DNA from: Ceratodon purpureus
Lineage: Eukaryota > Streptophyta > Bryopsida > Pseudoditrichales > Ditrichaceae
Direction: 5' to 3'
Length of the DNA stretch: 64,000 nt
Assembly (NCBI GenBank): GCA_014871385.1
Contig: CM026426.1
Span: 34,625,020 to 34,689,019, forward strand
Shown piece after piece: positions 1-43,379 of this stretch. Position numbers and translations under genes: made by a program. How positions within the stretch are numbered: the stretch's first letter is position 1; every line of letters begins with the position of its first letter. The notes beneath the pieces were generated by a model, which did no database searches, was not told where the DNA came from, and saw only the letters and a program-made list of their open reading frames with translations.

Positions 1-24
1 TTGTCTTTGTCTCTATGCTTGCAG

Positions 25-435
25 GTATTCTCAGATGCACCCTTGTCCATCAGTTCCCCTATCTCAGTGATCAATGTTTCCGACCTCTCGGATTCATTTG
101 ATCAGCCCCATTTATGTAGGTGTGATTTAGGAAGCCCTGTAGATGTAGGTAGTGGACCTCTCGAGGTCCACTCCCCTCAGTACATGCCTACGTCTCCTGT
201 CTATGAGCCTACATCCCCAGGCTACATGCCTACTTCTCCACGGCTTGGTACCCCGCCGATGTCTCCACCTTCTCCTTCCTCGCCTATTAGAGTGAGGAGG
301 CCAGCCCATGTTGTCTTCGCCCTTCCGGCGATACTACCATGCCCTGTCCAACAGACCAGGCGTTTTTGGAGGAGGCGCCGTCATTGGAACTGTAGACAGG
401 CTAGGGAGTATTATAGCCGTGCTCCACGTACATAG
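25..435 (+). CDS. CTD-heptad / SIM-like protein, last exon (copy A)
   Basis: This is the last exon of a gene that begins before the window; the acceptor is CTTGCAG at 18-24 and the stop is TAG at 433-435. The protein segment has three visible parts. First is a hydrophobic-acidic stretch, ISVINVSDLSD, which resembles a SUMO-interaction motif. Next come three consecutive heptads of the form Y-x-P-T-S-P-x (x = M/E/M at position 2), which resemble the RNA polymerase II CTD repeat YSPTSPS, followed by a Pro/Ser-rich run. Last is a strongly basic tail with RRRRHW that could act as a nuclear signal. Copy C has the same exon with many synonymous changes, which suggests past selection on the protein. 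The role is unknown; binding CTD readers or the transcription machinery is an inference. No in-frame donor leads to the next exon, so this looks like a separate product or alternative 3' end of the block. Confidence 0.7.
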   Translation, partial: VFSDAPLSISSPISVINVSDLSDSFDQPHLCRCDLGSPVDVGSGPLEVHSPQYMPTSPVYEPTSPGYMPTSPRLGTPPMSPPSPSSPIRVRRPAHVVFALPAILPCPVQQTRRFWRRRRHWNCRQAREYYSRAPRT

Positions 436-593
436 TGGCCTATGTACTACTTCCTATTGTTTGGGTTTAGAGTTGGTTTTGCAAATGAGATGTATCAGTT
501 CTGAAAGCTATTGGTTTATTCATCTTCGTAATTGTTTTACTTATTCTCATCCTTGTCTTCGGATCAAATTTGAAAATACATGACTTTTGGCAG

Positions 594-3500
594 GTAACTC
601 AGACACAGGATATGTTGCCAGCGCCATCATGTCCTCCTGATTTGACGAATGTAGTGGACAGTGAATTGGGACATCGGGTACAACACAAAGTGGACTCCAT
701 AAGCGTCATCAATAAGCTCCGAATACTTCCAAAGTCGAAGTCGCGTATACTAGTTCCCCTTTGCAGAATGATCTCTATGGCAAGAGTGAGACCTGTAGGA
801 GAAATGGGAGTTCAGCATTTGGAGCGCGAGTTTGTCAAAGGATATAGAGATGGAGACCGAGTCATGTACATTTCCATCTACGACCATGAAGAGAAGACAT
901 CCGACGTCACAGAGGAGACCAAGGCTGAGTGGAGCCCTTGTTGGCAAAAAGCGAATGATGCTTTCGAAGATGAGCTCTTGGCCGACTCGGATTGGAAGCA
1001 GTTTTCTGGGAAGATGTTCTATGTCTGGGAAGGTAACCATCGCCTTGCGGCATGGTACAGACATATCAACAAACATCACAGCGAAGATCCAGCATGGCAC
1101 ATTTCTGTGCATTGCATTGTTCTTGATCCCCGCGGTCATGTGGGAAATCTTCTACATGCCATCCACGACATAAACTGGTGAGGATTGAAACCCCTTATTT
1201 TGTCCATTCCTCTTGCACGCAGGTTGAACTCGATCTTTATGCATTGTACTAACCATCGTCTATTCGTACAGATCTACAGAAAATGATCATGTGAAGAGTA
1301 ATATTCCGGCAAAACTTTATCGAATTCGCTCATTCGGTGTGATGAAATTGGAGGAGTTCAAGGATCTCCTCACACCAGCGGAGTATCATATATGTTTGAA
1401 CCACAAACCGTCCAATCCATCCTGGTTTACATTGCCAACCAAAGTCTTCATCGCGTTTCTTTATCGTGTAAGCACTTCTTTCTCCCCTCATCAAACTTCC
1501 ATATCGACAAAGGATTTTTGTTTGTTTGTAAACTTACCATTTCTTAAATCTGTTTTCCAGAGAGAAATCACGGCTGCTTCTGACGAAGCTGCCCGAGTCT
1601 ACAAGACAAAAACAGCAATTGAAGACCAAACCGCGACTGGTGTTTGGGATGCCATGACTGCAGCAATAAACAACATGGTCGAATCCATTAAGAGGAAGGA
1701 CTTCACTAAGTACTTGGCAATTGCAAATCCCAAGAACGGTGACGACTTCCTCAATGAAGTGAGACCCTGACCCTGGTTCACTTCAGTATTTCGTTTGACT
1801 ACATCAGATTTGTGATCATATTTTTTAAAACTCCTCTACTTGTTGCAGATTAATCGGCATTTTAGTGAGAACAATAAACCCGAGATGACCCTCGATAAGC
1901 TTCAGAAGATTGTTCCAGCGGCCGTTGAGGCCAAATACAAGGCTCGTTGGTTGAGGTGGTGGAACTCATCTCTGAGTTCCCGAATGTCCTACAGATTTCT
2001 ACCACCTGAATTCAAGGATACCGACTTCGACCCTTGGTTGAACAAGGCTTCATTCTGGGCTGGGGTATAGTTTCTTAAAAACCTTCATAATGACCTGATC
2101 CTTTCATCTCTTCCGCGAATTTCTCTCATTGAAAATTAATTGAATTCTGAAATACAGTTGGAGGAAGCCGTCATCAACGGATTTGAGGACATATGCAAGG
2201 CGGAGAACATTGTTATTAATTGGAAGGCATTTCCAGATGTCCAAGAGCCGGGCGATTATGTGGAGAGTGCACGTATTCTGTTGTGGGACAAGGCCTTCCC
2301 TACGTTCATTGGAAAGTCGGCTGATAAGCCCTTCGACAAGAAGTCCATTTTTGCTACTTTTCCTGGAACCGCTCAGGTTGTCAAGCGGGTTACTTACCGG
2401 TACGTTACATACCTTTAAATTAGATTCAAATTCGAGAATTAGGTCTCTTCACTTTGATACTAACCTTCTACATATTGGTTTACTAAGGTACTTGAAGCGA
2501 GAGCTTCTTCTGAAGGGGGCAATCAAGGTTCAGCAGCTCCCTAACTACTTCCCTGCTTGGACGTCGACAACCTCGGACCAGTGTATGTACTCTCCCCAAC
2601 AACTGAAAAGGTACAAATCTCCTCACTTGCTTGAGGGCTGCTGGTATCTTGATTGCTCTCGTGGTTTCACGATTGACTCTGAGGCGGATGTCAAGACTCT
2701 ACACGACGGGGGTGAGGTTGTGGTGGACGACTCCGCGGATGATGCAGAAGGTCGTGAAGGAGAGCAGGATCAGTCTTCTGCTCCACCACCAAAGAGAGGA
2801 AGAGGAAAGCGATTAAAATCTCTGCGTTCTAAGTCAGAGGCATCGCAACAAACTGGTGCGGAGTCTTCCGCGCCAGCTGAGAAGGCACCAGAGCCCTCTC
2901 CGGGTATTGTCGTTACAAACCCTTCTCCAGCTTCTTCGCCGGCTCCTTCCTCGATCAGTGCTTCGCAGATCACCAGAGGTCTCCTTGAGCAGAGGAAGGC
3001 CAAACTATACCCTCAAACAACTTCTTCCGCTGGAGCTTCAATTTCCACACATGTTTCCGTCTTCAACTCATCTGTGGATTCCATGTTACGGCGAAATAGG
3101 AGACAGGAGAGAAAAGGTGGCGACCCGGATTGGATCAAGACTCAAGACTTCATTCGCAAGGTTTGTTCCTATATTTTGACATTTAATGGATTCTGCCACC
3201 TCTACTCGCTATGTAGTTACTAACTCTGCTTTCTTGTTTCCTCAAGTTTGGAGCCGGCCGCGAAAACATAGTTGGGGACCGGTGCAAACAAGAGGACCAT
3301 CTGGGAGTTGACTTGATCATTGCCGACATCCCTAAGAATCTTCCCGTCCCATCCGTTTCCGTTCCCCCCACGAGTATTCCGCCTTGGAACTCTCGGTACA
3401 AAGATTATGTGTACGACATCTTCCGCTTTGCAGATGATTTCCTGCAGAAAGATGGTGCCATCTGCCTCATCTACAACACTGATCAGAAGCTGGCTAAGGA

Positions 3501-4563
3501 TATCGACGAAGAAGCTACTGGTGGTGACTACGTGCTCTTCAAGGACTGGTGGGGCGTCAATGTCCTCGGCCTGACTTCTCCTACGAAGCCCGAGAACTTG
3601 GTACTTTTCCTAAACATACCCTTCTCTTTACTTAACGATAACCCTTCCGCTTAATTTTACTCACTATTTCTGCTTGACTGCAGACTATGCGGTTCTGGAT
3701 TCGCGTCTACGTTCGTAGTGGCAGTACTTTCTCCTTCCAGACGAAGAAGGAAGACCTGATACATGGGCTCCTCAACATTACTGAGAGTGATGCCATTTTC
3801 AACTTCACCGATGCCGAATCTCAGCTCATGAATGGGGAGGTGCCGTGGAGAGGCCCAAGGGAGAAATCCCCTGAGATGATGCAGAACATCATTGAGGAGC
3901 TGTCCAAGCCAGGCGACATAGTCCTTGATTGGAATGCAGGGACAGGTAACTCTTCTTACATATCCTTGCTTCATTTTTCCTCTCATTTTTTCCAGAGTTT
4001 CTCATCTCTTTGTTTCTCTCCGAGTTTCAGGGGCCTCCATCAAGGCCGCCCAGGCTGTTGGTCGTCACATTCTCGCTTTTGAGGAGGACGAAGCCATATT
4101 CAACGCCCTTCTCAAACCATCCGCCATGGGCCCTCCTAAACATCCAAGGCCGGCAGCAGCAGACGAAGCTCCTCCAAAGAGACCAAGACCTGATAAGTGG
4201 TGTAAGTCTTCTATTCTTTGTTCAAAATATCCTAGCACTGCTTCTCTTTGCACCTCCACGTACTCATTCTAACCACAATCGGTTTTCTATTGCAGAGTAG
4301 TTTCGGCAACACCGCCACGTGGGCCAACATCACTGTCCACTCCATCGTGGCGTCTTCATTCCAGCCCAGTTCAGCCTTATGTACTTCCGGACTATGCAGA
4401 GGGCTTAGCACAAGCGCTGCAATCTGGAGCTCTTACATATGTTCCTAGTCGGCCCACTAGTTTTGATCCCAGGGCCCTACTATTTGTCGATGACGAGGCT
4501 GTAGAAGGAGATTCTGAGTCATCGGGTTCGGAAAGTGGAAGTAGCGACTGTAGCATGTTGTGA
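594..4563 (+). CDS. ParB-like domain fused to permuted DNA-methyltransferase-like domain (copy A)
   Basis: Exons predicted from GT-AG sites and alignment with copy C are 594-1177, 1272-1467, 1561-1758, 1849-2064, 2158-2399, 2488-3160, 3247-3600, 3684-3945, 4031-4199 and 4296-4563. Exon 1 encodes a ParB-like fold with the signature WEGNHRLAAW (1026-1055), corresponding to the ParB G-x-x-R box. A middle region of several hundred residues holds the conserved CWYLDC block and a basic Ser/Pro-rich linker with PKRGRGKR. The last exons match the beta-class (COG0863-like) methylase order: DLIIADIP at the DPPY position (3310-3333), then PWRGPREKS, then KPGDIVLDWNAGTG (motif I, split by an intron), then GRHILAFEEDEAIF. 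The C-terminus is acidic and Ser-rich. The catalytic DPPY is replaced by ADIP, so activity is doubtful. The codon across the 1177/1272 junction reads TG|A where copy C has TG|G, and the last junction (4199/4296) also gives TGA. The upstream 5' structure is unresolved. Domain assignment is strong; intactness is weak. Confidence 0.75.
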
Positions 4564-5029
4564 TTTTGAAGGAGGCTTCGGTCTATTGTTGTTTTCATTG
4601 GATTTGATTTGATTTGATTAAACCTTGCCTCCTTTATGTTCTTTAAAGTTTGTTTTTTTTCCTAGTGCATTTACATAATCCTATGAAAGAATTATTTGTT
4701 TGATCTAAAACTTAACGCATGGTCATTGTATCTTCCCTAAACCCATGACAAATCTAACAAAATGTATGCATGACGTCATCATGACATCAGTCCTAATTTG
4801 TATCGTAGAGAACAAACGTAATAAATTCTTACCAGAGTTAACCCTGATCTCCACGGTAATATACTCTTTTCCTAAAAAAAGTGTCAAAATCAAGCCTTAA
4901 TTTAGTAATTTTCCACGGTTATAGGGTCTACTTTGCTTTTGAAAATTTTGATAATTGTCAATTGTGTGCTCTCCATTCTGTGCTCTCCGCTCTCCGCTCT
5001 ACGCTCTCCGCTCACATACGAACTTTCCC
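4564..5029. repeat. Right subterminal and terminal region of copy A
   Basis: There is no gene here. The stretch contains a TGACGTCA palindrome (4771-4778), two CCACGGT/ACCGTGG motifs, and a terminal run of CTCTCCGCT-type repeats (about 4970-5012) ending at 5029. The same order is found at 49940-50324 in copy C. Such subterminal arrays are usual transposase-binding sites in MULE and hAT elements; that role here is inferred. Confidence 0.7.
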
Positions 5030-5178
5030 CATCCCTGTTCTACTACTGCTAATTATCTAACGCAGTACGCGGGATTAGCGTAGTGGACGCAGAGTAAGGA
5101 TTAGAGTTCCTCACCAACGACATCGTCAAAGCCAACCACCCAGAATGGACCTATGGTAGCAGCGATTTTTTTTGGTTT

Positions 5179-10968: not shown

Positions 10969-10978
10969 AATTGGAGTC
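10969..10978. repeat. Target-site duplication, left copy (AATTGGAGTC)
   Basis: This 10-mer matches AATCGGAGTC at 28398-28407 at 9 of 10 positions. Each copy lies exactly outside the aligned terminal repeats of copy B. A 9-11 bp duplication is typical of MULE insertions. Confidence 0.7.
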
Positions 10979-11060
10979 GGACGTCGCTAAAGTGCGAGTA
11001 GTGAGCGGCGAGCGGAGAGCGGTGAGCGGTAACTTTTTGAGTATCTTGATGTTTTTGGGA
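10979..11060. repeat. Left terminal inverted repeat of copy B
   Basis: It pairs with 28316-28397 reversed. The inner part contains a run of GAGCGG-like units and then GTAACTTT and TTGATGTTTTTGG, all at matching offsets in the right TIR. Two CCGTGGA motifs follow within 150 bases of the TIR, shared with the subterminal zone of copies A and C. Confidence 0.8.
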
Positions 11061-11446
11061 ATTCAAAGCGGTATGGTTATGGTATTTTATGGACTAACAA
11101 TTTTTTTGGTTTTTAAAATTCTAAGTATAGTTCTTAATGTGACCTATGACCGTGGACAATTTCAGTGAAATGGCTAGATGCCCTGATCTATGGCCGTGGA
11201 AATCTTGGTATTAGGGTGAGTGGGCAGTACGGGCCTGCACTCGTGCATTGTTGTTACAGGAACTGTTCGGCCGGGGCTTATTTTGGGGACATGCACTGAG
11301 GTCACACGGTAGCGGCCTTCTGTTCTAATTCGCAAATGTCGGTTTAGGTACAAATATTGTCACTGTTGAATGACAGTTAAGACTTTGTATCTTTGTAAAC
11401 ATGCTAAAGTGACCTTTCATATTACAACAACCTTTTACCTCCTCAG

Positions 11447-12602
11447 ATGCCTCCGACGATCCAAAACAACCAACTTCAATTATAGATCAGTTTTTGCCTA
11501 GATTCAACCGAGTGAACCGAGTGCGTGAATTTGAGTTGAATACGTCGTGATTCTTTTTCAAACACAACATTCGTCAGCCAGTAAATCGTCAATCACAATT
11601 TCCGGGCAGAATCAAAAAAAAAACATTGTTGCACAATACAGTAATAGTTCTTGTCCATTCGTGGATATGCAAAACGAGATCTCCAGGAATCAACTTTGTT
11701 CCTTGATTTTCTTAGTGTATTTACGTTTACATTGCGTTCATGCTTCGCGACCAAATACACGTAGTCCCCTCAACATTCAAAACGCATCTCCTTATCCGGT
11801 TACGGTGAATTGTGCCGAAAAGAAAGTTGTCAAAGGATTGGTTAGAATGGATTACAGTTTCTCTGAAAGTCTTAGTCCAAATTCGGTAGCTCTTCTTGGT
11901 TCGTTGCTTCGACAACGTATGAATTTGGGAATGTTCAAGAACAATCTATTGTGCAAATTTTTGTATGAAACCAGGAGTTGGAATTGCGTGGAATCCTATA
12001 TAGTTGAACATGTCTGCTTGAGGTTGCAAGCACTTTTGCAGTCTTCCTTGAGGTTGCAAGCACTTTCTGAGGAAGGGCCAGTTTGGGATAAATCCATACA
12101 CATGGGAATGGATTGATAGACTTGACGACTACTTTGTTTCAGTACTCAATGACCTCGAGCACAAACTGATGCTGGTTTACGGACCGGCAAATGGTGCTAG
12201 GACAGTGAGAACACTTCCATCCCGTCTTCAGAGAGAGTTTGAGAATGAACGTACAATAAGAGTTATCTTAAGGAGAGCTACACATCCACATCTTATTACG
12301 AAGTGGGTATGCAAGTTCCTTCTAACAGAAACAAGGCAATTCCGCGAGGGCGTATTTCTATGGATACCTCTTGATGACCCAGATGATCCCATGATGTGTA
12401 TTGATTGCGCTTGGAAAGCAAATCACACTAGTATTTTTCAAGATACAAGAGGCTGTAATTAGAACAACCCTAAGTAGGTAAAACAATTTGATTGGATTAG
12501 ACATCGTGAGCGAGCAGTTGAAGTGGAGGACTGTCAGCCAACATCCACTGTAGATGATGAAAATCCAAACAAGCGTCAAAAACAGGAAGACAATGAATTG
12601 TG
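11447..12602 (+). pseudogene. Unknown element-borne gene with C-terminal basic patch (copy B)
   Basis: A polypyrimidine tract and CAG precede 11447, so a spliced exon probably begins here. Coding-like frames run through about 11450-11530 (IIDQFLPRF segment), 11547-12116, 12118-12462 and about 12482-12602, ending at TGA. The last segment ends with NPNKRQKQEDNEL, which looks like a monopartite nuclear signal. Frame changes and stops between segments (for example at 11548 and 12114) show decay. I do not recognise the family; there is no zinc-binding pattern and no transmembrane segment. It lies between the left TIR and the transposase gene, and no equivalent was found in copy C. A small accessory protein is a guess. 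Confidence 0.4.
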
Positions 12603-13134
12603 ACTTCTGTGCGCACAAAGGAAGTGATTAGAACATAAATGTGCAACATAACATATACATGTACGCACGCTCAGCAATCTGCGACAGAAAGAGCGGTTTT
12701 GATGAAGATATAAATTACTGCAGAGGACCGTGAATTGAAAATAGTCTAGACTCTCTAAGTTCGTGTAACATGGTCAGAAGCTTTTACCTCATTCATTAAC
12801 CTACGACAAAGGTGGGTCACTAGTATACCTCCCTTTGACTAAGAGTTCTCTGGATTTTTAGAGTCTGAAAAAGGTTTGTTTGGACCCGAGCACACATACG
12901 TGACTCCCTCTTAAACTCTTTTACGGGGACTTCTTTAGGAATTACGTAGTTCTTTATATTCCTTACTAAATGGTTATTAACAGTGCTTATGTACATTTAG
13001 AGCGAAATACACAGGAATTTGAAGAAATGGAATCCAGTGCTATTGCAAAATTTTAGTACTCGCCCTTTAGTCTCACTACTTCACCACTGAAATAAATTCA
13101 AGCGACACATGTGCAAACAACGAATCAGATATCA
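12603..13134. other. No gene recognised
   Basis: This stretch separates the 3' ends of the unknown plus-strand gene and the minus-strand transposase gene. Nothing was recognised in it. Confidence 0.4.
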
Positions 13135-16100
13135 CTAGTTGTCGAAGTACTTTAGAAGGCCACTATCCAGGACTCGCTTCACTTCGTTGAAAGCTAAAAC
13201 TAGCTGCATGAATGAATTGTCTGACCCTGAGTCAAGACCGCAAACTACAGTGAACAGAGAGTACAAGTGCTTACAACTAGCCCATTGACCCCGCTTCCCA
13301 AGTGCCTGTAGTGCCATCTCCTTGAAATACGGGCAAGTGCAGGCAGGGTGACGCGAAATGGTCAGGTAATATTGCTGTACCTTTGGAAGCTTCCCAGAGT
13401 CCAATGTGACGATGCATCCCAGGGCTGGGGCAGGCAGCATGCACAACTTGCTCACCTTCGTGATCAACGACAAGGTTTAGGCACAATTATTGCTATGCTT
13501 GGTCGACGGGGCCTTCTTATTCCGTCGGATGTGCTATCCTAATCGCCGGGTAGGGAACTCCTCCGGATATGCCAGCGTAGGATAGGCCGAGAAGTCCACT
13601 ACCGCTGCTCGGTCTTGAAAGAGTCTCTTCGGTGACATCTCCTTCTGCTGCGGGAGTTTGAAGCCGACATTCTCCAGAGACATGATCTCTTTCTTCGTCA
13701 ACTTGGTCCCAATCTTCACGGGCCAGACCTCTGGTACGTCTGGCAGCAATAGGACCCACTTCCGTCTGCTACCCTTGACGCACCTGTCAATGTCGTCATT
13801 GCAGCAAATGAACTGATGGGTCTCTACCTTGTCTTTCTTGTAGTTCTTCATGAGGCCTGTGTATGTCGCCGCAACCGTACTCTTCTTGTGCTGCACAATC
13901 CGTGCCACGCATTTCTTCTTAGTCACAGCATGTTGGGCAATGCACGCCTTGGCGGATGTCTTAGGGAGTCGTGCAATGTGCCACTCGAAAGGGTTGCAAG
14001 GGGTCTCTTGAACTAAAGTAACGTGATGGTAGTCGATTGGAGGTGGAGATAGGTGAGGGTAAAGGTCACCTTGGTCCTCTTCACTGCTTGTAGGAGAGTC
14101 TGCTATTACCATCGTCAAAGGATAGTCGCCCTCTCGGCGTGCAGCTCTAATCAAGACACAAGGTCTTGACATGCTGATCTTGTCTGGCGTATGAGACTCC
14201 CGTTCATCTTCGAAGGAAACATCAAGTTTTTGTTTCCGAGAGACACAGACCTCCTCCCCTTCAAGATGCGGGTTCTTGGTGCACCATTTGTCCGCTCCTG
14301 GCATGTTCAGAATCGCTTCATGTAGGGCTTTCGAGTTTCCTGTCCTTGCTGTAGATCTTTGTGCACGTCGGAGCTTGAGCTCTTCTTTTGACGGACCTTT
14401 CTCGGGATGCTCCCCCTTCAGGAACTGGAAGTAGGCAACGCATTGCATGATGACCCGTACAAAGTCGTCCACAGCTGCGACATACAAGTCGCTGCCCTGA
14501 TCTCCAGACTGCTGCTTGTACCTGTTGTGGATTGATTCAGCAAGATTGCATGACGGCATTTCGGCCAACTCATCCTCACTATGATTCTGCACACATCGGG
14601 GGTTAAGTAAGATAGCTAAGTGTTTGATGACTGACTGTAGAGCAGACACAGTGCCACCAGCAAGAGTCCTCGGCACCAAGGCAAATTACCAAGGGCTGCA
14701 AGGCTGCCGCATTAAGCGTTAGCTCATGGCACGGAGCTTCAAGAAAGAGGAGACACAGTGCCCCCAGCAAGAGTCCTCGGCACCGAGGCATTATGCCAAG
14801 GGCTGCGAGGTTGGTGCATTGGGCATTAGCTCATGGCACGGAGCATCAAGAAAGAGCAGACACAGTGCCTCTAGCAAGTTACTTTAGATGCGACAGAGAT
14901 TGAAAAGACGACAGATTGCTTACCAATTCCATGAAGCCTCCCCATTGGCGATAGCAGAAGTGCCACAACGAAAGCCACGTTTCTAGATTTGAGAGCCCTT
15001 TTTTTGTTGCAGCGCCGGATGACATCGACCATGCTCGGATTGCCAAGAACTTCGTTTCAGCTTCAGCCAGTGTTATCGCGTTCTTGTACTGCAAGCAGGG
15101 TTTAATGTGCTGCGCTTGGAGGTCCGGTCGAATGTCAGCCTTTGTATGTTGCTCTGGAGACTGCCTCCAATGGAATAGGCATGTCCTCTCCTAATAATCA
15201 TCATCTCTGAGGCGTTATCGCTCCCATAGATAATGCGAACTGATTCAAGTTTGCTTGGGCACCGTCCGCCATGAAGCCCTTAAAGTTTACTCTTACGACC
15301 CTATGAGTCTCCATGATAGCATTCAAATTCTTCCAGAGGACGGAATGGGCTGCCGTGGTCAAACATGATCCACGCGTTCTCCAGGTCACCGCCACTCTGC
15401 ATACGCTTAACTAAATTGACTCTATTGCCCGGCCCTACCTCAGACATCTTGACGACAAACATTTTCTCTACATCATTGCCTTGCCCCGGAAACATGTTCT
15501 TTTGGATAAATTTTTCAGTTGCTGAAGCCTCGCAGCATTCTGGTGTTGTCCATGGTCCCACAGCGCCTAACAGCCTTGAACGACGTAATGCAATTTCTAA
15601 TGTTTGGGGATGAGAGATGCTTACAGCAATCAAAGATAGGTTTGAGCTCCTCGAGTTCCAATATCTTCCGTGGTTCACCCTCTCTAGCCAGGAGTAACGG
15701 TCCAGCAACTCCTTTGCTGTTCTGAGGACGATGGCGGAATTGGTGGCGGACGGAGTTTGCTCCACCTGCTCCTTGATGAAGTTCTCCGTGTGTTCGACAA
15801 AGTCGCAGTTGTCACGAGACTTTACTAGGTGGTCGTGAGTTCCCAAGTGTACGCAGGCACTCGTCATGAAAGGTCCCGCACTGACGTAGTAAATCTTTGC
15901 AAGACAAAGCGCAACGCAGGTCGGTAGTGTGTTGCAAGATTTATAGACTACAGTGGAACTCTGCGGCGGGTTAGATCTGACTTCAAACAGTCTCTCAAAA
16001 ATTTCATCTCATTTAGTCTAGTTCACTAGCGAAGTCCTATTTTCACATTTGACATTGTCACAACGGAGATGGCCAAGGCACGACAAAGAATGGAATGTCA

Positions 16101-16950
16101 GCTTCAAGTCATTCTGGATATTTGAGGTCAATGTTCGAGTCCAAGGGTGGCCATCAAATTTTTGATCCATTCCACGTAACTGCTTTGCAGCGGAGTGATG
16201 GCCGTGAGCACCTAGGAGTGGAAACTCAAAAATGACATCGCCGTTGTACTGAGGTGGGAGGAATTGAACTTCCTGCATCCTAATTGCATTAAAATTGATG
16301 CGCGACAGAACACTCTTTGACCTCTTACGAGCGCTAAGCTTCATGAGTCACTCAACGACGCGCTCAGAAGGAGAGACTACAGGGGTAGATGCAACCGAGG
16401 ACTTCACGTGGGAAACTAATTCCTCACGATTCTCAACTGCAATTGGCAATGTCTTGTCCTTCCTCTCAGGGACTACTGTCGTCTCTTCTACGTTTTCACT
16501 ATCAGTATCATCAGTTAACACGTAAATGGTCTGAAGTCTTGGCTCGGTCTTAACTTTCCTCAACGACGGATCAGACTCAATGCACACTGTTGTGGACGAT
16601 CGGGGGGTAAGCAATTCAGTAGAAGCACCTAAGAGAGACTCCGTAATTCCATGAAATCTATACTTCCCAGGTTTAAGAAACCAAAACGTCCCACTCTCCT
16701 TCTGAGTTGACAACTGACCCACTGCATGCAAGAGTGCGCCACTGATGTTGTCGAAAATCTCCTCTCCTACAAGAAGTGATTCCTCCTTGAACTAGAAGCG
16801 AAGACTCAAAATTGTAGAACTATTCATAGCACTCCCATCTTCATCCAAAGGAAACGTAATCGGAACAGAATGCAAGTCTGCACAAAGGTAAGCCATACTG
16901 TGAACAAGAAGAGCTGTCGGCAACAGCGAGATGGGTAAAAGCAGACATAG
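13135..16950 (-). pseudogene. MULE-type transposase with SWIM finger (copy B), disrupted
   Basis: From the N-terminus: a domain with LGASTELLTPR (about 16900-16560), a SIM-like IYVLTDDTDSE, a basic ARKRSK patch, then LRCDNVKCE and the C...C...HLGTHDH zinc-binding region (GCM1/WRKY/FLYWCH-like). The MULE core segment FKGFMADGAQANLN (about 15255) carries a catalytic Asp. After an intron of about 330 bases comes a Cys-rich region (KKKCVARIV ... CVKGSRRKWV, about 13760-13920) and a SWIM finger ACTCPYFK ... CKHLY (CxC...CxH, 13265-13360). Damage includes TAG at 16792-16794, TGA at 16348-16350, stops near 16018, a frameshift near 13500, and a deletion that removes the first catalytic Asp block (DATY in copy C). 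It transcribes away from the ParB-methyltransferase gene. It cannot make a working transposase. Confidence 0.75.
14640..14885. repeat. Intron minisatellite in the transposase gene (about 2 units)
   Basis: Units of roughly 115 bases carry the core CCTCGGCACCGAGGCATTA (or decayed versions). The array sits inside the intron between the MULE-core exon and the Cys-rich exon. It belongs to the same family as the arrays at 19545, 21968 and 24905, here on the opposite strand, so it is in the sense orientation of its host gene. Confidence 0.8.
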
Positions 16951-18412
16951 CAAAGACGATCACATACTAGTAGCTACCCTTCTTGCTGCAACATCCTTCT
17001 AAACTCGCAAGTGGGAATAAAAGAATACATGATTAAAGAGACGGTTAACATTAAGACGTACAGTTAGCAAGATTTTTAGAACGAATAATCTTACATGAAC
17101 TAATTAATCATGGATTAGTATAAGTTCAGAGAATGTGACCGCCCTAATCATAATTATCATATTTGAGGCTGGAATATTACAAACATGAGTGGTGGATGAC
17201 GGCAACTTTTAGTACTAACAGAATTTCCATTAAAATGAAACGCTTTTATTACAATGGAACCATTCCGTTCACATTCAAGTGGAAGTATCCAAAGTCTTTA
17301 ATCCCACTACTCTATATTTGATGCGACGATTGCGCTTTATGGATGGCTCCCGCGCTTTATAGTCTTTAATACTATCTTAAATTAGTCCATCACTACTAAC
17401 AGCAGCCCAGCACCCTCTACTTTGTAGCTTACGTCCTTTCGGATGAGGGATACTTCTCAAAAGACATCTAGAGTACGTCCCCGGTTTGATGTTTCCAACT
17501 TTGGCTTACGCATGGCTTGCACTACTAAGATTGCACACAGTCTGTTCTCCTTCTACCACGGTTGGGGGTGGCCAACTAAACACAGTCCTAAGCGTCCACA
17601 AGCATCACATCCATGGGAGTAAATGGGGTGGGTGGCTTGCTGGAGTCTCGCAAGTTGCAATCAGGAAACGGATTGAAGGGACCCTGAAAATTGACTAAGG
17701 ATGTGCGGTCCTCTCCCTCTTGCTGTGAATCTGAAGTAAATGACAACGGGGCATGAGCGGGTCTGCCTCCATCTCCGCTAAATTCTCTACTAAGATTATC
17801 TAAGTCTAGAATGAATGAGCCATTGACATGTCTTATATAGGATTAGAGAGGACCTAGCCTGAGCTCATGTTTTTACACGTGTTTAAGAGGGTTGAGTTAA
17901 TGCAAGCCGGTAATCAGAGACAACGCATTTTTGACAGGGTTATTAACAGACAGTGGATACCTGACTGTATGGAAGGTGAACTAACTTCTGCTGGAGAACA
18001 AATGCTACGTCATGGTCATTAGATATTGGAATCTCATCAGGTAACTGTATTCATGCATTCCACATTCAGCCAACGCCGACTCATTGATTATGACAACTAT
18101 TAATGTCCAAATATCTTATTTAGTGCCCAAATGTCAGAGCGACATATAAACCGCAGTCGAACTCATAATGACACGCTTTTAGACATTTTAAAGAATGAAC
18201 ATATTAAGAGGGCATAGATCCCTCATCTGCTATTTTTTCAAGCCATTATGAAATGCTTCGAATGGTCCATTAGACTCAGAGATGATCACACGGTCTGCTT
18301 CGAAGGCGCAGGCAGAGTTATCCAGGTCTAAATAGAAACAGAGGCGTCTTGGGAGGAAGAGGAGGTTTGCACTTATAGGGGTGAGTGAAACTCTGTACAA
18401 TTTGCATTCAGC
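16951..18412. promoter_or_regulatory. Divergent intergenic region of copy B
   Basis: About 1.5 kb lies between the start of the minus-strand transposase gene and the first candidate exon of the plus-strand gene. By position it should hold the promoters for both. It is AT-rich with no coding frame I trust, and no specific binding site could be assigned. Confidence 0.35.
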
Positions 18413-18487
18413 AATGGGGAAGAAGAGAGGGAGTTCTAGTCGAGCAGTTGGAGGACGAACTAGACGAGGTGCTGCTTCAATTGGATG
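18413..18487 (+). other. Possible first exon of the copy B plus-strand gene
   Basis: A short frame begins MGKKRGSSSR and is rich in Gly, Arg and Ser. It resembles the start of the copy C plus-strand gene (MKQSGGPSSS followed by basic residues) and sits at the equivalent place, but a TGA ends it after 24 residues. A second candidate start lies at about 19138 (MEGESVDKSM). Both are weak. Confidence 0.25.
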
Positions 18488-19544
18488 AGACAATGTTTCA
18501 CCGCGGACTCTGAACTAGGTGTACAAGGACGGAACGCCCATCCAAAATCCTCGCGCTAAGGCATGCTCTAATGCAAAGGGAATTATGAATGTGCTTCTGA
18601 AGTTAGTCTTCGGTTTAGATGGTTGAAATCACTGTCCCCATGAGTATGAGATGCTAAATCATTTCCTACTAGAGAGCCATCGAGTAGGCTACAATTTAGG
18701 GATTTAGGGTTTAGGGAGGGAGGTTTCCCGCACACGTTAATCCCAAGTACAACAGTTTCTTGAAAATGGTTATAGTTAAAACGATGGTATAGCTGAAGAA
18801 ATTCATTATTGTGCGTTCTCGTAAAATTATTTACGTAGTGAGAGGTTGCAATCAGCAATGCTTTAATAAAAGTTTTTAGGTTGTAAGTTCGGTCCGATTA
18901 AGGAGGCTGCTCGGTGCCATAGCTTGCGGGGCCGACACAGTCTACAGCAAATACGAGGGAGGGGCCTAGGGTAAGAGAGAGGGAGCGCAAGCAGCCTGGC
19001 TCCGATCTTTTGAGTTAATGTCTATTGCTTGTAAGTACCGTATCCTTGCACATGTTCTTCTTTTCCAGTGCACTGCACAACCCGATTGAGCATTCAATTT
19101 CTTTGCAGCTCCAATAGCAGATCAAAGAAGAAGACGATATGGAGGGGGAGTCAGTCGACAAGAGTATGCGAGCCCCAGTGAATCTATTCAGGTGACGCCT
19201 TGATCGCATTGTCTTTGCAGCAGTACTATGTTGTGGTAATATGTTGTGGATTAGATATGCAAGATGCGTCTTTTTGTAACTTGTCAATGTTAATCTTCTA
19301 CACTTAATCGAGAGTTTGAAGTTTTTAGTTAGTACAGTATTAGGTCTGACGGTGATACCTAATTAGCAGGGTTTACCTAATGAAGTCCATTGTCCATGTC
19401 TCAGCATCAGACAGGACCGCAAAGCAATAATAGTGAGAGCGGTGGTCCCTTCATCATGGATAGAGGAGACAATGACAGGAACGCAACACCCACGAACAAT
19501 GAGGTTTGAACAATTTGCATGGTTGATACATTACAGCAGAGTCT

Positions 19545-19850
19545 GGCTATTTTATGCTATTTTTTTGGCATGTGCTTGAGCCCTTTGAAGCAACCTCACA
19601 GCCCTTGGCATAATGCCTTGGTGCCGAGGACTCTTGCTGGGGGCTCTCAGTCTGGTCCTCTCATGTTGTTTTTTTGGCATGTGCTTGAGCCCTTTGAAGC
19701 AACCGTAAAGCCCTTGGCATAATGCCTCGGTGCCGAGAACTCTTGCTGGGGGCTCTTAGTCTAGTCCATGTATGCTATTTTTTTGGCATGCCGTTGAGCC
19801 CTTTTAAGCAACCTTGCAGCCCTTGGCATAATGCTCGGTGCCGACATTGT
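19545..19850. repeat. Intron minisatellite, three units of about 114 bases
   Basis: Each unit contains GGCATGTGCTTGAGCCCTTT and then a core with GGCATAATGCC and CCTCGGTGCCGAGG (the second and third units partly decayed). The core has two potential hairpins. It lies in the first intron of the copy B ParB-methyltransferase gene. Confidence 0.85.
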
Positions 19851-21967
19851 AATGATTGTGTAAATCTTCTTGACTTTGCAGGTTGACCGCGGGGAGGATT
19901 CTGCTCAGTATGAGGAGGACACTCAGGGAGCCTCACCGGAGACGCCTGGCAACACCAAAAAGTAGGATGACTCGGTTGATGATGATGACGCTTTCGTGGG
20001 AGATTAGACAAGATTCGAACTCGCCAGAAACTCAACTCTGTCGCAACTATTTCAAGTCTGAGAGTCAAGCCTTTCAGTTTATCCTGATTCAACATTCCTT
20101 TGTGTAGAATGCAGGCAATGCCTATAGTGCGCCGAATGATGCAGTGCGACCTCTCCAAACTGGAGGAGGAATTTGCGCATGGTTACCGGGAGGGAGCATC
20201 TGTGTTTTACGTGACAACTATATATGAGGGTGGTAAAACAAAGGAAGTATCGGCTGCTGATAAGGCTAGATGGGGTCCTATCTGGAACAAAAAGAGCAAA
20301 GAATTTAACAATTTCCTGCTCTCTGTACCGGAGTTAGCAGGTTTGATAGATCTGATGTTTTTTGTATGTGACGGGAATCATCGTTGTCAAGCATGGTTGA
20401 ACCATATAGAGCGCCTTCACAAGACCGATGAATCCTGGCAGGATTCCAGGAGGATTACCTTGAGGATTCCATTCTTCTGGACACAAAGGGAAGAATTGGC
20501 TTAGTCATGCAGGTCATGTATAACATTAACAAGTAAGTTTCCTGCAGACTTGAATGTGTTTATCTTTTCATTATTACACTTCCTTATGTATTGCTGTTCA
20601 ATAGTTCCTAATTCTCATATACTTGTGGCAGGTATATGGAGGACGGTCATGTGAAGACGAACAATGTGCACACCCTTTTCAGAGTTCAGAAGTACGGCCT
20701 TATGCCCTTTGAGCACTTCAAGGAACTGCTTTCCTCCTCGGATTTAAAGAGATGCAGGAAAACTAAGCACAGTACTTGGTACACGTTACCAGTTTAGGTA
20801 TTCACTAGTTTTATCTACCAAGTAACCGTGATTTACAATACCTCTATTTCTTTTAAAATTTCAAACGTTATGTAGGCGTCTTGGACCTTTCTAAGGATGC
20901 ATGCTCCATATACAGATTGATGTGTGTAGAATTGGGTATACAGTACTGCAGGCTACGGTATTATAGTCTGCCTATACTTTATCCGCGTATACCATGGTTT
21001 AGCAAAATTGTGTAGCTCCATGCCACTCTTCTTGCATCCTCACTTCTCCCAACGAGGCATTGAATCCTAACTAAATCCGTTGCTGAGTTGGTGCAGTACG
21101 AGATCACCAGAACAACAGACGAGGGGCTACGTGCTTACTTGGAAAATGCAGAAGGTGATGTCGCCGAAAAAGATAAAGCAGCTACAATGAAGTTGGTTGC
21201 TGAAAAGAAGAACGAGAACCTGATGAAGAAAATGAACAAGTTAGTTGCAATCGCTAACCCGGAGCTGACACCGGGATTTTTAAAAGAGGTATTGTATCCT
21301 AGCCTCAGAACACTATTGAATTTGCTATACCAATCTCTAGGATACAACGTTATCTTGCTACGAGGTTGGTCAATTCAAATTGAGCGGCACTACTCGCTGA
21401 GTGGCTCCACGAACACCGAGTTGAATCTTGAAAAGCTTCAAGTGATAGCAACAGCGACGGCCTCTACTGCCGCATAGATAAGATGGCTCGAGTTATTCAA
21501 CTCCTCTATAGCCACAAGAGAGGCACGATGCCTACCACTGAAACCAGGCAACGAGCAGAGGGTAACCCACTTGCTGGGAAGGGCATGCTACTGGACAGCG
21601 GTGAGTTATTCCTCTCCCGTATTACCGAATGCTATGCTGTAATATTGTTGCAATGCCATTCTTCGCTTACTATTTCTTTGTTACATAACGTATGCCTGGT
21701 TGGTCTTTTAGTTAAATGAGGATGCATCCGCCTCTTTGGACGACATCCTGCGGTTGGACCAAATTCCAATTAACATGAACGTTCCCACAGAGCCCATGAG
21801 TTTGGAAACCTACGTGGAAGATTGCAAAATGAAACTATTTGACCATGCCTTCTTCTCGTACTTCAAAGGGACTGACGCCTTCAACAAGACCAATGACTTC
21901 AAGGAGTACAAGGGCTCTGACTTAGTGGTTCGAAAAACCGTTTTCAAGTATCCTCCTTACCTTATAA

Positions 21968-22345
21968 TGAACCAGCCTTGTAGTCCTTGGCAATTTGCCT
22001 CGATGCCGAGGACTCTTGCAAGGGGCACTGTGTCTGCTCTTTCTTAATGCTCCGTACCATCAGCTAACGCCCCATCCAGCAGCCTTGCAGCCCTAGGCAA
22101 TTTGCCTCAGTGCCAAGGACTCTTGCTGCGGGCACTATGTTTGCTCTTTCTTGATGCTCCGTGCCATGAGGTAACGCTAATGCAGCAGCCTTGCAGCCCT
22201 TGGCAATTTGCCTTGGTGCCAAGGACTCTTGCTGGGGGGCAGTGTGTCTGCTCTTTCTTCATGCTCCGTGCCATGAGCTAGCCCCCAATGCAGCAGCCTA
22301 GCAGCCCTTGGCAAGGACTCCTGCTTTGGGCATCTTGCCTGCATT
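21968..22345. repeat. Intron minisatellite, about 3-4 units of 113 bases
   Basis: Units share the core CAGCCCTTGGCAATTTGCC ... AGGACTCTTGCTGGGGGC and then CTCCGTGCCATGAG. The core matches the 19545 array but the spacer is that of the 14640 array. It sits in the intron before the 22441 exon. Confidence 0.85.
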
Positions 22346-24904
22346 CCTTTTTTGATAAATGGCATGTCCTAACTAAATCTGATTGTGTTGAATTTTGTAA
22401 AATGCGTAATTGATATTATTGTTGTCCATATGTAATGCAGGTACTTCAAATACAAGCTCCTGGCCAAAGGGGCCATCTCAAAGGAAAATCTTCCGATTTT
22501 TCTCCAAGCATGGGTTGATGGCTCCAGTCCCAGCTGTATGTTCTCTCATGCTCAGCAACGAACTTGGACCAGAGCGCACCTCATAGTAGCTGCTTGGTAC
22601 CTGGATTGTCTCTTTAGCTTCACCCCATCATGCTTAGAAAGTCAAGGGACTCCATAAGTGAATCAGGGGCTGAGATGCAAGATCTTATGGTGATCGAAGA
22701 CAAGGCAGAGAGGGCAAAGGCCTTAAAGCGCCGAGTAGAAGAGGATTGCAGGAAGGCACAGAAAATCAAAGAGGCCGAGGAGAAGGCGCTTCAGAGGGAG
22801 GAAGAGAAGCAACAGAGGGCTACGGAGAAGTCATCGAAGAAAGGCAAGAAGAAAGGTAAGTCTCCTAGCGAGGAAGTTGGAAAAATTCCAAAAAGTAGTT
22901 TGAGCTCACAGGCACCTCCAAACTCGAGGGGCACAAAATGCTCGGTAGACTCTACTTACGAAGAAGCGCTCACCCAGGCTCTGAATATTAACCTAGGTGA
23001 TGAGGAGGGGAGCAACAACCGCTATCGTGCTTCCTGCTCAAGGTACTTTGGATAACCTTTTTATGTCGATATTGTATAATATAGATATCGTTCTAATGTG
23101 GATATTGCTACTCTGTTTTCATTTCTTTTAATGTGGGTGTAGTCCTGAATTTGCTTGTTTTGATCCAGGGTATGAGTTCTCGGCTTAGACTTCCATGAGT
23201 TGAGCTGATATGAATTCACAGGCACTCTATATACTTTCTCTCAAAATTGTTCCGCTTTATAATGTGCAGCATTCTGAAGGGAGATCTGTGCGCTTCCGGG
23301 GAGATCCATGCGCTTCCGGGGCGAGCGGAAGGTACATCCTTTTGTGGACTTCATAATCGCAGACATTCCTGAGGGACTGCCTGTCCTGGGAGTATCCGAT
23401 CCTCCAACATCGATCCCCTCCTGGAATCGAGACACCGAGAACTACTTGGAGCCCATTTTTGATTTCGCCGACAATCATTTGCAGGATGATGGGGCCGTAA
23501 TATTATTTCACCCCTTTCGTGCCTCAACAAAGGGTGAGATCTTTGGGTACTGCAAAGCATACGAGTTTGAAGTTCGCAACGAATGGTGGGGGACCAATAA
23601 GCTTCAACTCACATCTCCCATCAATCCCACGGTAACTGTAAGTTTACTTCCCTTATTACATTACAACCCGGTCAGCCCTTTCCATTAGTGGACATGGTCA
23701 TGGAGTATCTCATTTTATGGCCCGAGTTTGATTGGTGGTCATAATGGTTTTACGATGTCTTGATTTCTAAGTTGGACATGTTTCACAGACAATGAAGTTC
23801 GGAATTCTACTTGTTGTGAGAAGCTTGAAAACTGGTGGTCGGAAATCTTGTTTCTCATTTTGGGAAGTGCCTACTCTGGAGCGTCTTGGATACGATGTTG
23901 GTCTCGATGATGTCCTCCAGAATCACGTGTCCCGAGACAATCAGCTTATGAATGCCTCGAGACCATGGCGCGGTCCTTGCGAAAAGTCCGTTCCCCTCAT
24001 GCAGATGCTGATTGAGGCCGCATTTGACCCTGGCAACGTGGTTCTTGACTGCACGGCTTTGAATGATAAGTTACCGTCTTTATTATAGTATTTGTCTCAT
24101 GCTATTTTCTAGGTATCATCACCAATAACCTTACTCTCTTTCTCACGTTCTTCAATTCATGCCTACCGACATCTTGATCGGCATATTGTTACTTTGGAGG
24201 CCGACGAGGAGATCTTCGCACGTGTATTGAAACCTCTAATTCGAGTTACTGCTGCCCCTAATGTCAGTGCCGCAAGACTGGTCACTAGTGAGGATCCTGA
24301 TGGCGAAGTCAGTGTGACAAAGATTGCAAAGAGATCCCGGTTTACTAAGTGAGTTTAGATACTTGTTTTCTAACGTTACATACTCTTTATAATATGATTT
24401 GCTCTGGACTAGATTTATGAAGAAAGTGCCATTTATATTTGCAGATGCGGCATTTTGAGCCATTCCATGAGTCTTTTTTTTTTTTGTCATCCTCATTTTT
24501 ACCCAAGGCCCCCAAAGTCATGGCATCTTCCCAGTTATGCGAACGATGCAGCTATCCAACTAGCTCGTGGCAACCACTGTACCTTTGAGTCCAGTAATCC
24601 CCGCAATAGGACTCTGGAATTTATCGATAGCGAAGCTGTGGAGTCCGATGGTGAGGCCCCTTCTGAAACCTTTAGTAGTCCATCTAGTATCACCTCCTCA
24701 TCATCCAAACATACAGACTCTAGCATCACTTTATTTAGTATAGATCCTAGCGACTCCAGTCATTTAAATTAGGACCCCCGGTCAAGTGATTTGCTTTGTA
24801 TTGAGTTACTCTATATCGTATTTGTATTTGCTTCCCATTATTGCTTTTCATTTAATCGGAATTTCATAATATACAGTTTTACAATAACGGACAGCTCATG
24901 TGCA

Positions 24905-25045
24905 ACGTTGCTGCAAAGGGCCCAAGCACATGCCAAACCACATGATAAAATCACCAGATTGAGAGCCCTCAGCAAGAGTCCTCGGCACCGAGGCATTATG
25001 CCAAGGGCTTCACGTTTGCTTCAAAGGGCTCAAGCACATGCCATT
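24905..25045. repeat. Single inverted minisatellite unit 3' of the copy B gene
   Basis: The core CCTCGGCACCGAGGCATTA is here in reverse orientation, flanked on both sides by GGGCTCAAGCACATGCC-type sequence, just downstream of the ParB-methyltransferase stop codon. Confidence 0.8.
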
Positions 25046-25059
25046 CAAGGGAAAACAAT

Positions 25060-26330
25060 AGCACATAGTGTGCCTCCAACAGGAATCATCTTTTTCTATC
25101 TGTTTTTTAGTATACCCTTTTCTCAAGCACGTATGTTCTTCATTTTCATCTTCGTTGTTTTCCTATTATATTTTCACATTTTTTCTACTGTTTTCACTTA
25201 GTCGTTCCAACCCCACCGTTCACTGACATTACCATCCCGATCCATTTATTTTTCCGCAAACCATTTTTAATCATCATTTACCCCTAACTCAAGCACCCTT
25301 CTTCTTAACTTTCATCTCCATTGTTTTTCTATTTTATTTGCCTATTCTGTTTTCCTACTTTATCCACTATTTTTCTCTATCCCTTCTACCCCCATCGCGC
25401 ACTCTCATTTCCATCACATTTTTATTTTTTTTCCAATTTCCAATTTTATTTCTCATTTATCACTTCCACTCCTCTCAATTAATCCGATGCGGCCTCAACG
25501 TAGTCTGCTGCAGCCTCAAGATAATTCGGGTTTATTTGCTATTAGTGGTTATCTATCTTCAGATTACTAATATGTATGATTGCTAATTATTATATTTAAT
25601 GTCAAGGCTGCATGGGTATTATCAATCCACCTAAACTTGAATCTTGGAAAAAGACCGACCTTGAATTACAGAGGAAACCTGTGAGAAAGGGATTTTGTGA
25701 TTTAAATAAAGGAGATGGCATAAGGGGTTTCATCTTCCAAAAAAAACAATCAAACAGGTTTTATAACATTTAATAAAATAAAGAAAGGGAATTAAAATAA
25801 AAATTAAATAAGCATGAAAAAAAAAAACAATTTAAAAAAAAAGGAATAAGATTTATAACATTTCCGAAAAAAAGGAAACTAACTTTAATAAAATTAATTA
25901 GCATGAATGAAAGAAAAGAGAAGCATGGAGAAAAATTCTGGAGCATGGTTCTATAAGTTGTATAGAGTGTCCAAGGCCTGGATTCTGTGCAGATTAAGAT
26001 AAGGATTGGGACCTAGTAATTTGTAAATTTCAAAAGGATTTCAAAGACTAGAAAGGTAGATTAAAATAATATAATGCTTCTGACGTGTTTCAAACAAATG
26101 ATGCTAGAAGACGTCGTCAATGCAATTGCGGGTCCATTTCTACAAGATGGATGGTAGTTATGTCATCCGTGTGTAAGTGATGGCTCAAAATGTACTGCAA
26201 GTGTGGGATATGGATGCCGTATCCCTAGAATGTGATAACTGTGCGGACAATATTTTTCTCACGGTCCTTGAGATTGCAATGACGGTGCTTCCCATGTATC
26301 GAATTCACTTCATCTCTGTAATACATCTAA
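25060..26330. repeat. Low-complexity T-rich then A-rich stretch
   Basis: 25080-25480 is pyrimidine-rich (TTTTCTAT, TTTATTTTT runs); 25730-25930 is A-rich. No gene was recognised. Confidence 0.5.
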
Positions 26331-26532
26331 GGGATTCCTAGCACTTTGCAGCAAGTGACTTCCTTTTGAAGGGGCGAATCCATGATTTTGAGCTCGCTTT
26401 GAGGTGGCGTTTTAGTATAGTGGGGCAGGCACTGCCATTCCGTGTTGCATGTAGAGGTGCAGAACGACGTGGGGAAGGAAATTTGTAGTCAAGCTTGAAA
26501 GGTTTAGGAACAACAAACCCTTTTGGGGTGCG

Positions 26533-26880
26533 ATGCCAAAGGTGCAAAATGCGATGTCGAAGAGGACGAGAGCGGCTGTGGGTCTAGCTCCCAAGGCACC
26601 GACAAGTTATGAGGAGCTGCGGCCATGGCTGGTAGAGGTGGAGCGCGCTAGGCTTCGAGGCATTGACTTGCCGCCGTTTTGGCACATCGGACGCCTCCAT
26701 GTTGGCGATGGGGAATGGCACTGGACAATGCTCTGTACCATTGAGCTCGTCCAAATCATGGAGGCATCCCTTATCCCGTACCCCTTGGCCTCCACCGCCG
26801 CTGTGAATCCAGTTATTCCGCTATCTGATGTGATCATATTGGATGGCAAAAATTGCTGGTTTGATATCGACAAGAGTTAG
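26533..26880 (+). CDS. Unassigned 115-codon frame inside copy B
   Basis: The frame begins MPKVQNAMSKRTRA, has a Trp-rich centre (GDGEWHWTM) and ends at TAG. A shifted frame continues at about 26898-27049 (VDYIKKLETSGIL), which could be one decayed exon set. No family is recognised and there is no homologue in copies A or C. It could be a host fragment captured by the element or chance. Confidence 0.25.
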   Translation: MPKVQNAMSKRTRAAVGLAPKAPTSYEELRPWLVEVERARLRGIDLPPFWHIGRLHVGDGEWHWTMLCTIELVQIMEASLIPYPLASTAAVNPVIPLSDVIILDGKNCWFDIDKS

Positions 26881-27593
26881 ACGGAGTATCCCCCAAGGGG
26901 TTGATTACATTAAGAAACTGGAAACTAGTGGGATTTTGAAGCCGCAGAAGACTGGATCTCATAGTGCAGAGTTAGCTTCTTTTACCAAGGAGAGATTTAG
27001 GCAGCATATCTGGACATGCGCAACTGATAGCTGCTTAACCGTATGTTGATTTTCAGTGCAGGCCTCGGTGTTACATGCCGGAAGTGGAGTACCTCCACTT
27101 ATATGGATAAATTTTTTTATTTTCTCAATAATAATCATTGCTGTTATAGGCTTGACAAGAATCTCGGCTGGATGAGTGTGGCCTAAGTCAAAGGGAGGCG
27201 TACGTTGTTGATGTACATAAAATCCAGGTCTATGTGGATTTTGGAATGGAATGTTCAGTACATATCGTGGTTTCCAATGGATATAGTTTGTTATTGTTTT
27301 ATTCTGGATCCCAAACCCCTAAAACCAGCCCCTTCCTTTAAATCACAAGCACTGTTTTCTGGCGGTTTTCTTCTATCATTCAAGGATGTTTTTCTTTCAC
27401 CATCCAAGATCAGATGGATTGAATATATCCATGCAGCCCTGACATCAAATATAATTATTAGCTATTACAATAATTAGCAATACTAAATTAAAATCCAATT
27501 TATTAATGATACAAGTATCTATGATCTAATAGTGATCTTCAATTAATCCTCTCCCTCTTTTATCTGGTTAGACTTTATATTCATAATAGATCC

Positions 27594-43335: not shown

Positions 43336-43379
43336 CATTTTTATTTTTTTAATTACCTCTCCACTATTCATCCCTCTCT

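Follow-up and report, generated by a model that had tools for sequence, protein, structure and literature searches.

A ParB-like box and a permuted amino-methyltransferase domain in one gene of an abundant MULE-like transposon of the moss Ceratodon purpureus

Results

We analysed a stretch of 64,000 nucleotides from Ceratodon purpureus (assembly GCA_014871385.1, contig CM026426.1, positions 34,625,020 to 34,689,019 of the forward strand), referred to below as the window. It holds three copies, A, B and C, of a gene in which a ParB-like box precedes the motifs of an amino-methyltransferase, each within a MULE-like (Mutator-like element) transposon (Table 1). The joined ten exons of copy A encode 1052 residues and contain a single in-frame TGA, where exons 1 and 2 meet. 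The start codon of this copy is predicted only approximately, and a further 5' exon is likely because its exon 1 methionine is missing from copy C and from one group of genome copies (group Y, described below). All ten exons of copy C fit the copy A model, although there are three in-frame stops and exons 4 and 9 lack an acceptor AG. Copy B is more diverged: each of the ten exon peptides of copy A was matched in order, at 27–48% identity, between 20016 and 24691 of the window; exons 1 and 2 contain stops, and the frame changes in exon 6. All three window copies are therefore damaged. A previous sequence-only reading of the window had described the box, the methylase motifs after it in permuted order, and the same introns in all three copies. 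The box and the order of the motifs were found as claimed, and so were the shared introns: the ten exons are present in both C and B, C lacking the two acceptors and B sharing splice-like borders with A at several positions.

The genome was searched as a 362-Mb assembly of 151 contigs. Exon 1 of the window clade gave at least 150 matches at 83–100% identity (the best 150 of 1903 candidates scored), and exon 1 of a second clade gave 3165 first-look candidates, 122 of which were scored. Ten copies from two equal-score groups, X and Y, were fetched as 20-kb stretches; they were chosen for an open exon 1, and the sample is therefore biased to young copies. When the copy A exon model was laid on them, nine of the ten had an uninterrupted frame and GT/AG at all junctions, so that the genome-wide search for intact copies suggested by the sequence-only reading did find them; the tenth had three stops. 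Given the 150 listed exon 1 matches, the nine open frames and an excess per site of silent over amino-acid changes (see below), the observation is more than chance. The gene is genuine, with ten exons and about 1052 residues, and as far as DNA can show both domains lie within it.

The gene lies in a transposon that moves as one piece about 17.5 kb long; the feature is larger than previously stated, the gene being one part of it. Comparison of genome copies revealed sharp element borders, the unit in copy X1 measuring about 17.5 kb. The left end reads GAGGG or GGACG followed by AAGCTTGTACGTGAGCGGAGAGCG, the right end reads GGGGAAAGTTCGTACGTGAGCGGAGAGCG on the opposite strand, with minor variants, and both run on as GAGCGG-type heptads. 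Aligning presumed flanks with each other had not revealed the inverted repeats; the genome-copy comparison did, and a motif scan then located those of copy B. Exact 10-bp target duplications flank five of the six fetched copies that have both ends within the stretch (the remaining four of the ten have only one end inside it). Genome-wide, the right-end motif gave 430 + 420 = 850 matches at up to two mismatches, against 0 for a reversed control. Because the ends are shared, the target sites duplicated and the right-end matches so numerous in comparison with the control, we conclude that the gene travels inside the transposon. This bears out the view that a cut-and-paste element with its own transposase gene carries both domains in a single gene model, as judged from the ends, the duplications and the spliced copies.

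The transposase gene of X1 lies on the minus strand, with open reading frames (ORFs) of 745 and 505 aa; divergent from it are an apparent second gene (gene 2) and the ParB-like/methyltransferase gene. Stretches of the transposase ORFs were present on the opposite strand in all ten fetched copies. In four both ORFs are full-length and stop-free, in three there is a stop, and in three a frame break or missing parts. Target duplications of MULEs measure 8–11 bp, and a D-D-(C..H)-E core with a CxC..CxH SWIM finger is the motif of their transposases. The moss element combines long inverted repeats with a duplication in this range (10 bp, exact in the five copies and with one mismatch in copy B), and residues of the core and of a C-terminal finger pattern can be recognised in the transposase ORFs by eye, unscored. 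Two observations weigh against the assignment: Y4, one of the six two-ended copies, has no target duplication, and Pfam transposase models were unmatched by the X1 ORFs, of which the 745-aa one gave DUF6301 alone, at 0.12, and the 505-aa one no match at all. The label 'MULE-like', already used in the sequence-only reading, is based here on ends, target duplications and motifs seen by eye, without a Pfam match.

Table 1. Positions of the transposon copies and their genes in the window
Feature	Position	Strand	Remarks
Copy A, right-hand part of MULE-like element	1..5030	+	left part outside window; right inverted repeat ends at 5030
Copy A, gene 2, probable last exon	25..435	+	YxPTSP heptads, like the RNA polymerase II C-terminal domain (CTD); PF05001 E 9e-4, just under cut-off
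Copy A, ParB-like/methyltransferase gene	594..4563	+	ten exons; this model uninterrupted in 9 of the 10 spliced genome copies
Copy A, exons 1-5	594-1177, 1272-1467, 1561-1758, 1849-2064, 2158-2399	+
Copy A, exons 6-10	2488-3160, 3247-3600, 3684-3945, 4031-4201, 4301-4563	+
Copy A, putative ParB-like domain core (PLCRM...GYRDG...VWEGNHRLAAW)	750..1177, approximate	+	continues into exon 2 (STENDHVKSN)
Copy A, predicted methyltransferase domain (exons 7-9)	3247..4201	+	motif IV position DIPK, motif X GPREK, motif I DWNAGTGA
Copy B, left target duplication	10969..10978	.	AATTGGAGTC; one mismatch in 10 to the right duplicate
Copy B, complete element, 17.4 kb	10979..28397	.	degenerate GAGCGG-type heptad inverted repeats at both ends
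Copy B, MULE-like transposase gene, degraded	13140..16900, approximate	-	ORFs; 15356-15506 has 76% DNA identity to X1 transposase gene
Copy B, ParB-like/methyltransferase gene	20016..24772	+	diverged, interrupted; ten exons recognisable to 24691; end from the sequence-only reading
Copy B, right target duplication	28398..28407	.	AATCGGAGTC
Copy C, mosaic element	34827..50324	.
Copy C, MULE-like transposase gene	35092..40486	-	about 1.6 kb (38266-39874) without X1 match
Copy C, gene 2, last exon	44245..44669	+	CTD-like heptads, PF05001 0.0047, under cut-off; 74% to X1 over 44240-44652
Copy C, ParB-like/methyltransferase gene	44810..48821	+	same ten exons, 3 stops, two acceptors without AG
Copy C, right inverted repeat	50297..50324	-

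A GxHR-type box with an invariant arginine marks the ParB/sulfiredoxin (Srx) superfamily. The box of copy A, in exon 1 (594–1177), is WEGNHRLAAW; copy C has WEGNHRLSAW, and copy B has DGNHRCQAW (20088–20480). GNHR was present in 22 of 23 family rows (21 of them distinct, from three clades), and the remaining row stops before this column. A conserved PLC...R...GY block precedes it; H[DN][IV]N follows, and then HVK.N where the next exon was read. The family profile was aligned by hhalign with ten YbdM/IbrB-type ParB proteins, a set assembled for this analysis. The resulting path placed GNHR on the DGFHR box of YbdM, and the alignment extends past the box.

Several results weigh against a ParB assignment. 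The hhalign score was 21.1 (P 0.022), and one column-shuffled decoy scored higher in a set of 40 and one in a set of 200; a five-row alignment covered the box alone, at a probability of 0.4%. The N-terminal half gave no match over cut-off in Pfam, NCBIfam or PHROGs with single members, or in Pfam and NCBIfam with ten members. The best Pfam names were subthreshold, DndB at 0.02 and DUF1015 at 0.098, beside unrelated weak ones such as E2F_TDP, and NCBIfam gave an equally unrelated, weak SatS at 0.015. An AlphaFold2 model of exon 1 with three window sequences reached a predicted local distance difference test score of 37, too poor for a fold search. When phages and plasmids were searched with the N-terminal half by tblastn at E up to 10, there was no match, and none of 76 pattern matches in viral contigs was confirmed. 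In the PDB, searched by sequence and by profile, the best matches were AlkB homologue 3 (0.13) and ribosomal protein eL24 (0.025), both judged to be chance.

The N-terminal half could instead be an element-specific DNA-binding domain unrelated to ParB/Srx, in which GNHR arose by chance. By itself such a box is short, and every library and sequence search was negative or subthreshold. However, DndB and DUF1015 both carry a DGxHR box. The former is the best Pfam name, and the latter is one of the two Pfam names, with E2F_TDP, that are common to two of the ten members; moreover, the profile alignment runs beyond the box, with all but one of the 200 decoys below it. On balance the domain probably belongs to ParB/Srx, and the unrelated origin is the less likely of the two, although it deserves to be taken seriously. 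The ParB half of the sequence-only reading is probable rather than established: the invariant GNHR and a profile alignment above nearly all decoys speak for it, and no family library matched over its cut-off.

By its sequence, the C-terminal half is a bacterial-type permuted beta-class amino-methyltransferase domain, as had been proposed. Copy A matched PF01555 (N6_N4_Mtase) at 1e-8 over the stretch from motif X to motif I, its 35.9 bits lying above the cut-off of 26.7. A locus of the sister clade (L001) aligned with the whole of the permuted model (positions 2–218) at 35.5 bits, in one frame reading through one TGA. The sequence-only reading had suggested comparison with PF01555 and with the ParB family PF02195; the first matched, but ParB-type Pfam families were unmatched over cut-off. 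Among sequences of solved structures, CcrM (5.5e-4) and DpnA (2e-3) were matched, DpnA in two pieces, of which the subthreshold motif IV piece sets DPPYN on DIPKN. Phage records yielded 210 matches at E up to 0.1, the lowest value among the 20 listed being 3e-7. The permuted order of motifs IV, X and I was confirmed; in copy A motif IV lies in exon 7, and PWRGPREK and PGDIVLDWNAGTG lie in exon 8. The earlier proposal of a horizontally acquired modification gene stays conjectural as regards a ready-made bacterial ParB-methylase: in the searches run, no prokaryotic relative of the whole was found.

What had been called the DPPY position reads DIPK in copy A, DISE in C and DIPE in B, with DPPY in none of them, and DIPE was found in all ten fetched copies. 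In the sister clade motif IV is DQPF, DQPY or DTPF (six distinct loci where it was found, of eight examined), and motif I has the form DxxASTGA, with S for the first G, in all eight. A canonical (D/N/S)PP(Y/F/W) motif IV was therefore absent from all the sequences read, whether in the window (3 copies), among the fetched copies (10) or in the sister clade (6 loci). In the account published for the bdelloid rotifer enzyme N4CMT, replacement of SPPY by APPA abolished activity (PMC8885841). Because of this result and the non-canonical motif IV, the window clade is probably dead or altered: catalysis by the C-terminal half is doubtful, and a pseudo-enzyme or altered enzyme seems more likely than a DNA methylase of the usual kind. 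In the sister clade the enzyme may be active.

The alternative to loss of activity is an active DNA amino-methyltransferase, guided by the N-terminal domain, that marks element DNA with N6-methyladenine (6mA) or N4-methylcytosine (4mC). A permuted beta-class fold, the intact motif I (DWNAGTGA) of copy A, the D, P and aromatic residue retained in motif IV of the sister clade, and a low rate of amino-acid change in the methyltransferase part (X1 versus A, below) would all suit such an enzyme. The lack of a canonical motif IV in every set of sequences, the missing aromatic residue in the clade of copy A, the S in motif I throughout the sister clade and the rotifer replacement speak against it, and we regard it as unlikely. 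The earlier description of a modification gene marking element DNA is likewise weakened by the lack of a canonical motif IV in every copy examined.

The ratio of nonsynonymous to synonymous substitution rates (dN/dS) between X1 and A was 0.168 for the whole gene (157 synonymous and 106 nonsynonymous changes). By region it was 0.125 in the ParB-like part, 0.163 in the middle, 0.148 in the linker, 0.221 in the methyltransferase part and 0.167 in the tail. The methyltransferase part gave 0.23 for Y4 versus A, and X1 and Y4 had zero amino-acid changes in it (3 changes in all). On the other side stand less low values for this part: 0.38 for X1 versus C, 0.44 for X1 versus Y1 (the second copy of each pair being damaged) and 0.28 for X1 versus X2, from 10 changes. 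Overall, both halves look to be under purifying selection. Between X1 and A, synonymous divergence was uneven: it reached 0.45 in the 5' part of the gene, against 0.16 for the methyltransferase part. Copy C was 88–93% identical to X1 in transposase stretches and about 76% in the gene stretch. From this unevenness and the mosaic nature of copy C, the elements seem to recombine with one another while selection holds both domains.

Selection and copy number also bear on two further explanations. MULEs capture genes, and the gene might be a host or foreign passenger that was captured once and is merely carried; its occurrence in all ten fetched elements (which were picked by this gene) and in several clades, together with low dN/dS and mostly intact frames, makes this very improbable. 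A domesticated gene that serves the host, with the transposon link secondary, is scarcely credible in view of at least 150 dispersed exon 1 copies at 83% identity or more and the 850 element ends.

Copy A was 89% identical to X1 over 2–4619 (X1 11357–15955) and 91.5% identical over 4620–5030 (X1 17138–17548); since the X1 match jumps from 15955 to 17138, about 1.2 kb of X1 is absent from copy A. The left end and left duplication of copy C were not found by element comparison or motif scan.

The last exon of gene 2, whose start in copy A was read from the sequence, has an X1 equivalent (X1 11380–11787) that matched PF05001 at 8.8e-4, under cut-off. Tandem arrays differed between the two subfamilies scanned: X1 has units of 60 and 117 nt, and Y4 has one of 171 nt, repeated 15 times at 99%. 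These arrays lie in the gene 2 region between the divergent genes, and all their periods are multiples of three (loci L020–L021 and L036–L037). Because of these periods and the open frames, gene 2 may code through the arrays. A 17-nt array near the left end has 21.7 or 38.2 copies.

Discussion

The best explanation, to which we incline without great confidence, is that the gene encodes a conserved accessory (non-transposase) protein of a large MULE-like transposon, and that in the window's own clade its methyltransferase half is a pseudo-enzyme more likely than an active DNA methylase. Its role would be analogous to that of plant VANC, and it may or may not still methylate. The N-terminal domain would be a divergent ParB/sulfiredoxin-fold module that binds DNA and possibly nucleoside triphosphates, and it may recruit the protein to element DNA, perhaps at the heptad-repeat ends or the tandem arrays. 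The methyltransferase-fold half probably keeps S-adenosylmethionine binding despite its atypical motif IV and could help the element to transpose or to evade silencing. A point against this is that CpG transitions were only slightly in excess among five X copies (6 of 22 C>T singletons); CpG decay was considered as a sign of host silencing and set aside, being slight only. Two models of the protein are best founded: it may be a helper that binds DNA and whose methyltransferase fold is altered or non-catalytic, or it may write 4mC or 6mA.

VANDALs are MULEs, and we know of no methyltransferase fold in their VANC proteins. In Arabidopsis, VANC is described as removing DNA methylation from its own VANDAL family, targets and coding regions changing by tandem repeats (PMC5735166), so that a helper or anti-silencing role of this kind does exist. 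On that description, the moss element resembles VANDALs in having a second conserved gene beside the transposase and fast-changing tandem arrays, apparently in coding regions too; anti-silencing is demonstrated in Arabidopsis, whereas for the moss element it is only proposed.

The closest likeness in domain content is to prokaryotic fusions of the type of Bacillus cereus Bce_0392, in which a ParB domain is joined to an adenine methylase and which is credited with a nonspecific nicking activity (PMC5512222). By domain description, both pair a ParB-like box with an amino-methyltransferase. The moss gene differs in being eukaryotic, with nine introns, and in lying inside a DNA transposon; it also has a long middle region and linker, an atypical motif IV and a ParB-like part that family models do not detect. 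Viral Mariner elements carry methyltransferases besides their transposase (PMC3627910) and are, like the moss element, DNA transposons that encode a methyltransferase next to the transposase. As outlined in that paper, they belong to another superfamily, have TA target duplications and carry other methyltransferase families, paired with a restriction-type nuclease; its main text makes no mention of ParB.

Bdelloid N4CMT is likewise a bacterial-type amino-methyltransferase in a eukaryotic nucleus, but it is described as a host gene with SPPY and a chromodomain and as a proven writer of 4mC (PMC8885841). It is linked there to the silencing of transposons and is not transposon-borne. A literature search, limited in coverage, found no ParB-like domain with an amino-methyltransferase in a MULE-like or other transposon. 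To judge from the sources cited here, transposon-borne methyltransferases and transposons with helper genes are already known, and what would be new is their combination with a ParB-like domain.

A more speculative reading, which we consider improbable but worth stating, is that the transposon possesses a ParB-methylase system of self-recognition and anti-silencing independent of plant VANC. A clamp or nicking module with a modified amino-methyltransferase would then recognise the element's own ends and arrays and mark or shield them, and gene 2, with its CTD-like heptads and fast-changing coding repeats, would be a transcription-acting partner.

If the reading of the gene as a conserved accessory of the transposon is true, a very abundant and apparently recently active eukaryotic transposon family has a second gene from the bacterial DNA-modification world, kept by selection. 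Whether transposons rely on DNA modification, or on dead modification enzymes, to find and protect their own copies then becomes a testable question. The clades offer a natural series of departures from the catalytic motif, with DQPF, DQPY or DTPF on one side and DIPE or DIPK on the other.

Additional features of the window

Within copy B, 26388–26891 is 75% identical to a right-hand minus-strand ORF of X1 and stands in the opposite orientation. Next to copy C, a minus-strand ORF at 50204–51007 gave a PCIF1_WW-like match (2.7e-7, 30.8 bits) just below the cut-off of 31.1; PCIF1_WW is another methyltransferase family. Since the frame of this ORF enters the right end of C (50324), element C seems to have been inserted into a PCIF1_WW-like gene. 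The ORF beside it (51008–51781, minus strand) had no match.

Elsewhere in the genome, at loci L032–L035 (contig C3, near 5.08 and 5.36 Mb), one copy has on its right side the same flanking 10-mer, CGATTGCATC, that another has on its left, which would suit recombination between two copies or a join made in the assembly. Contig C6 measures 110.5 Mb, against 16–29 Mb for 12 others (C1–C5 and C7–C13).

Between copies A and B, remains of a hAT element lie on the minus strand at 5589–6182 (dimerisation domain at 0.0064, under cut-off), and remains of a retroelement lie on the plus strand at 7540–8043 (reverse transcriptase, 3e-21).

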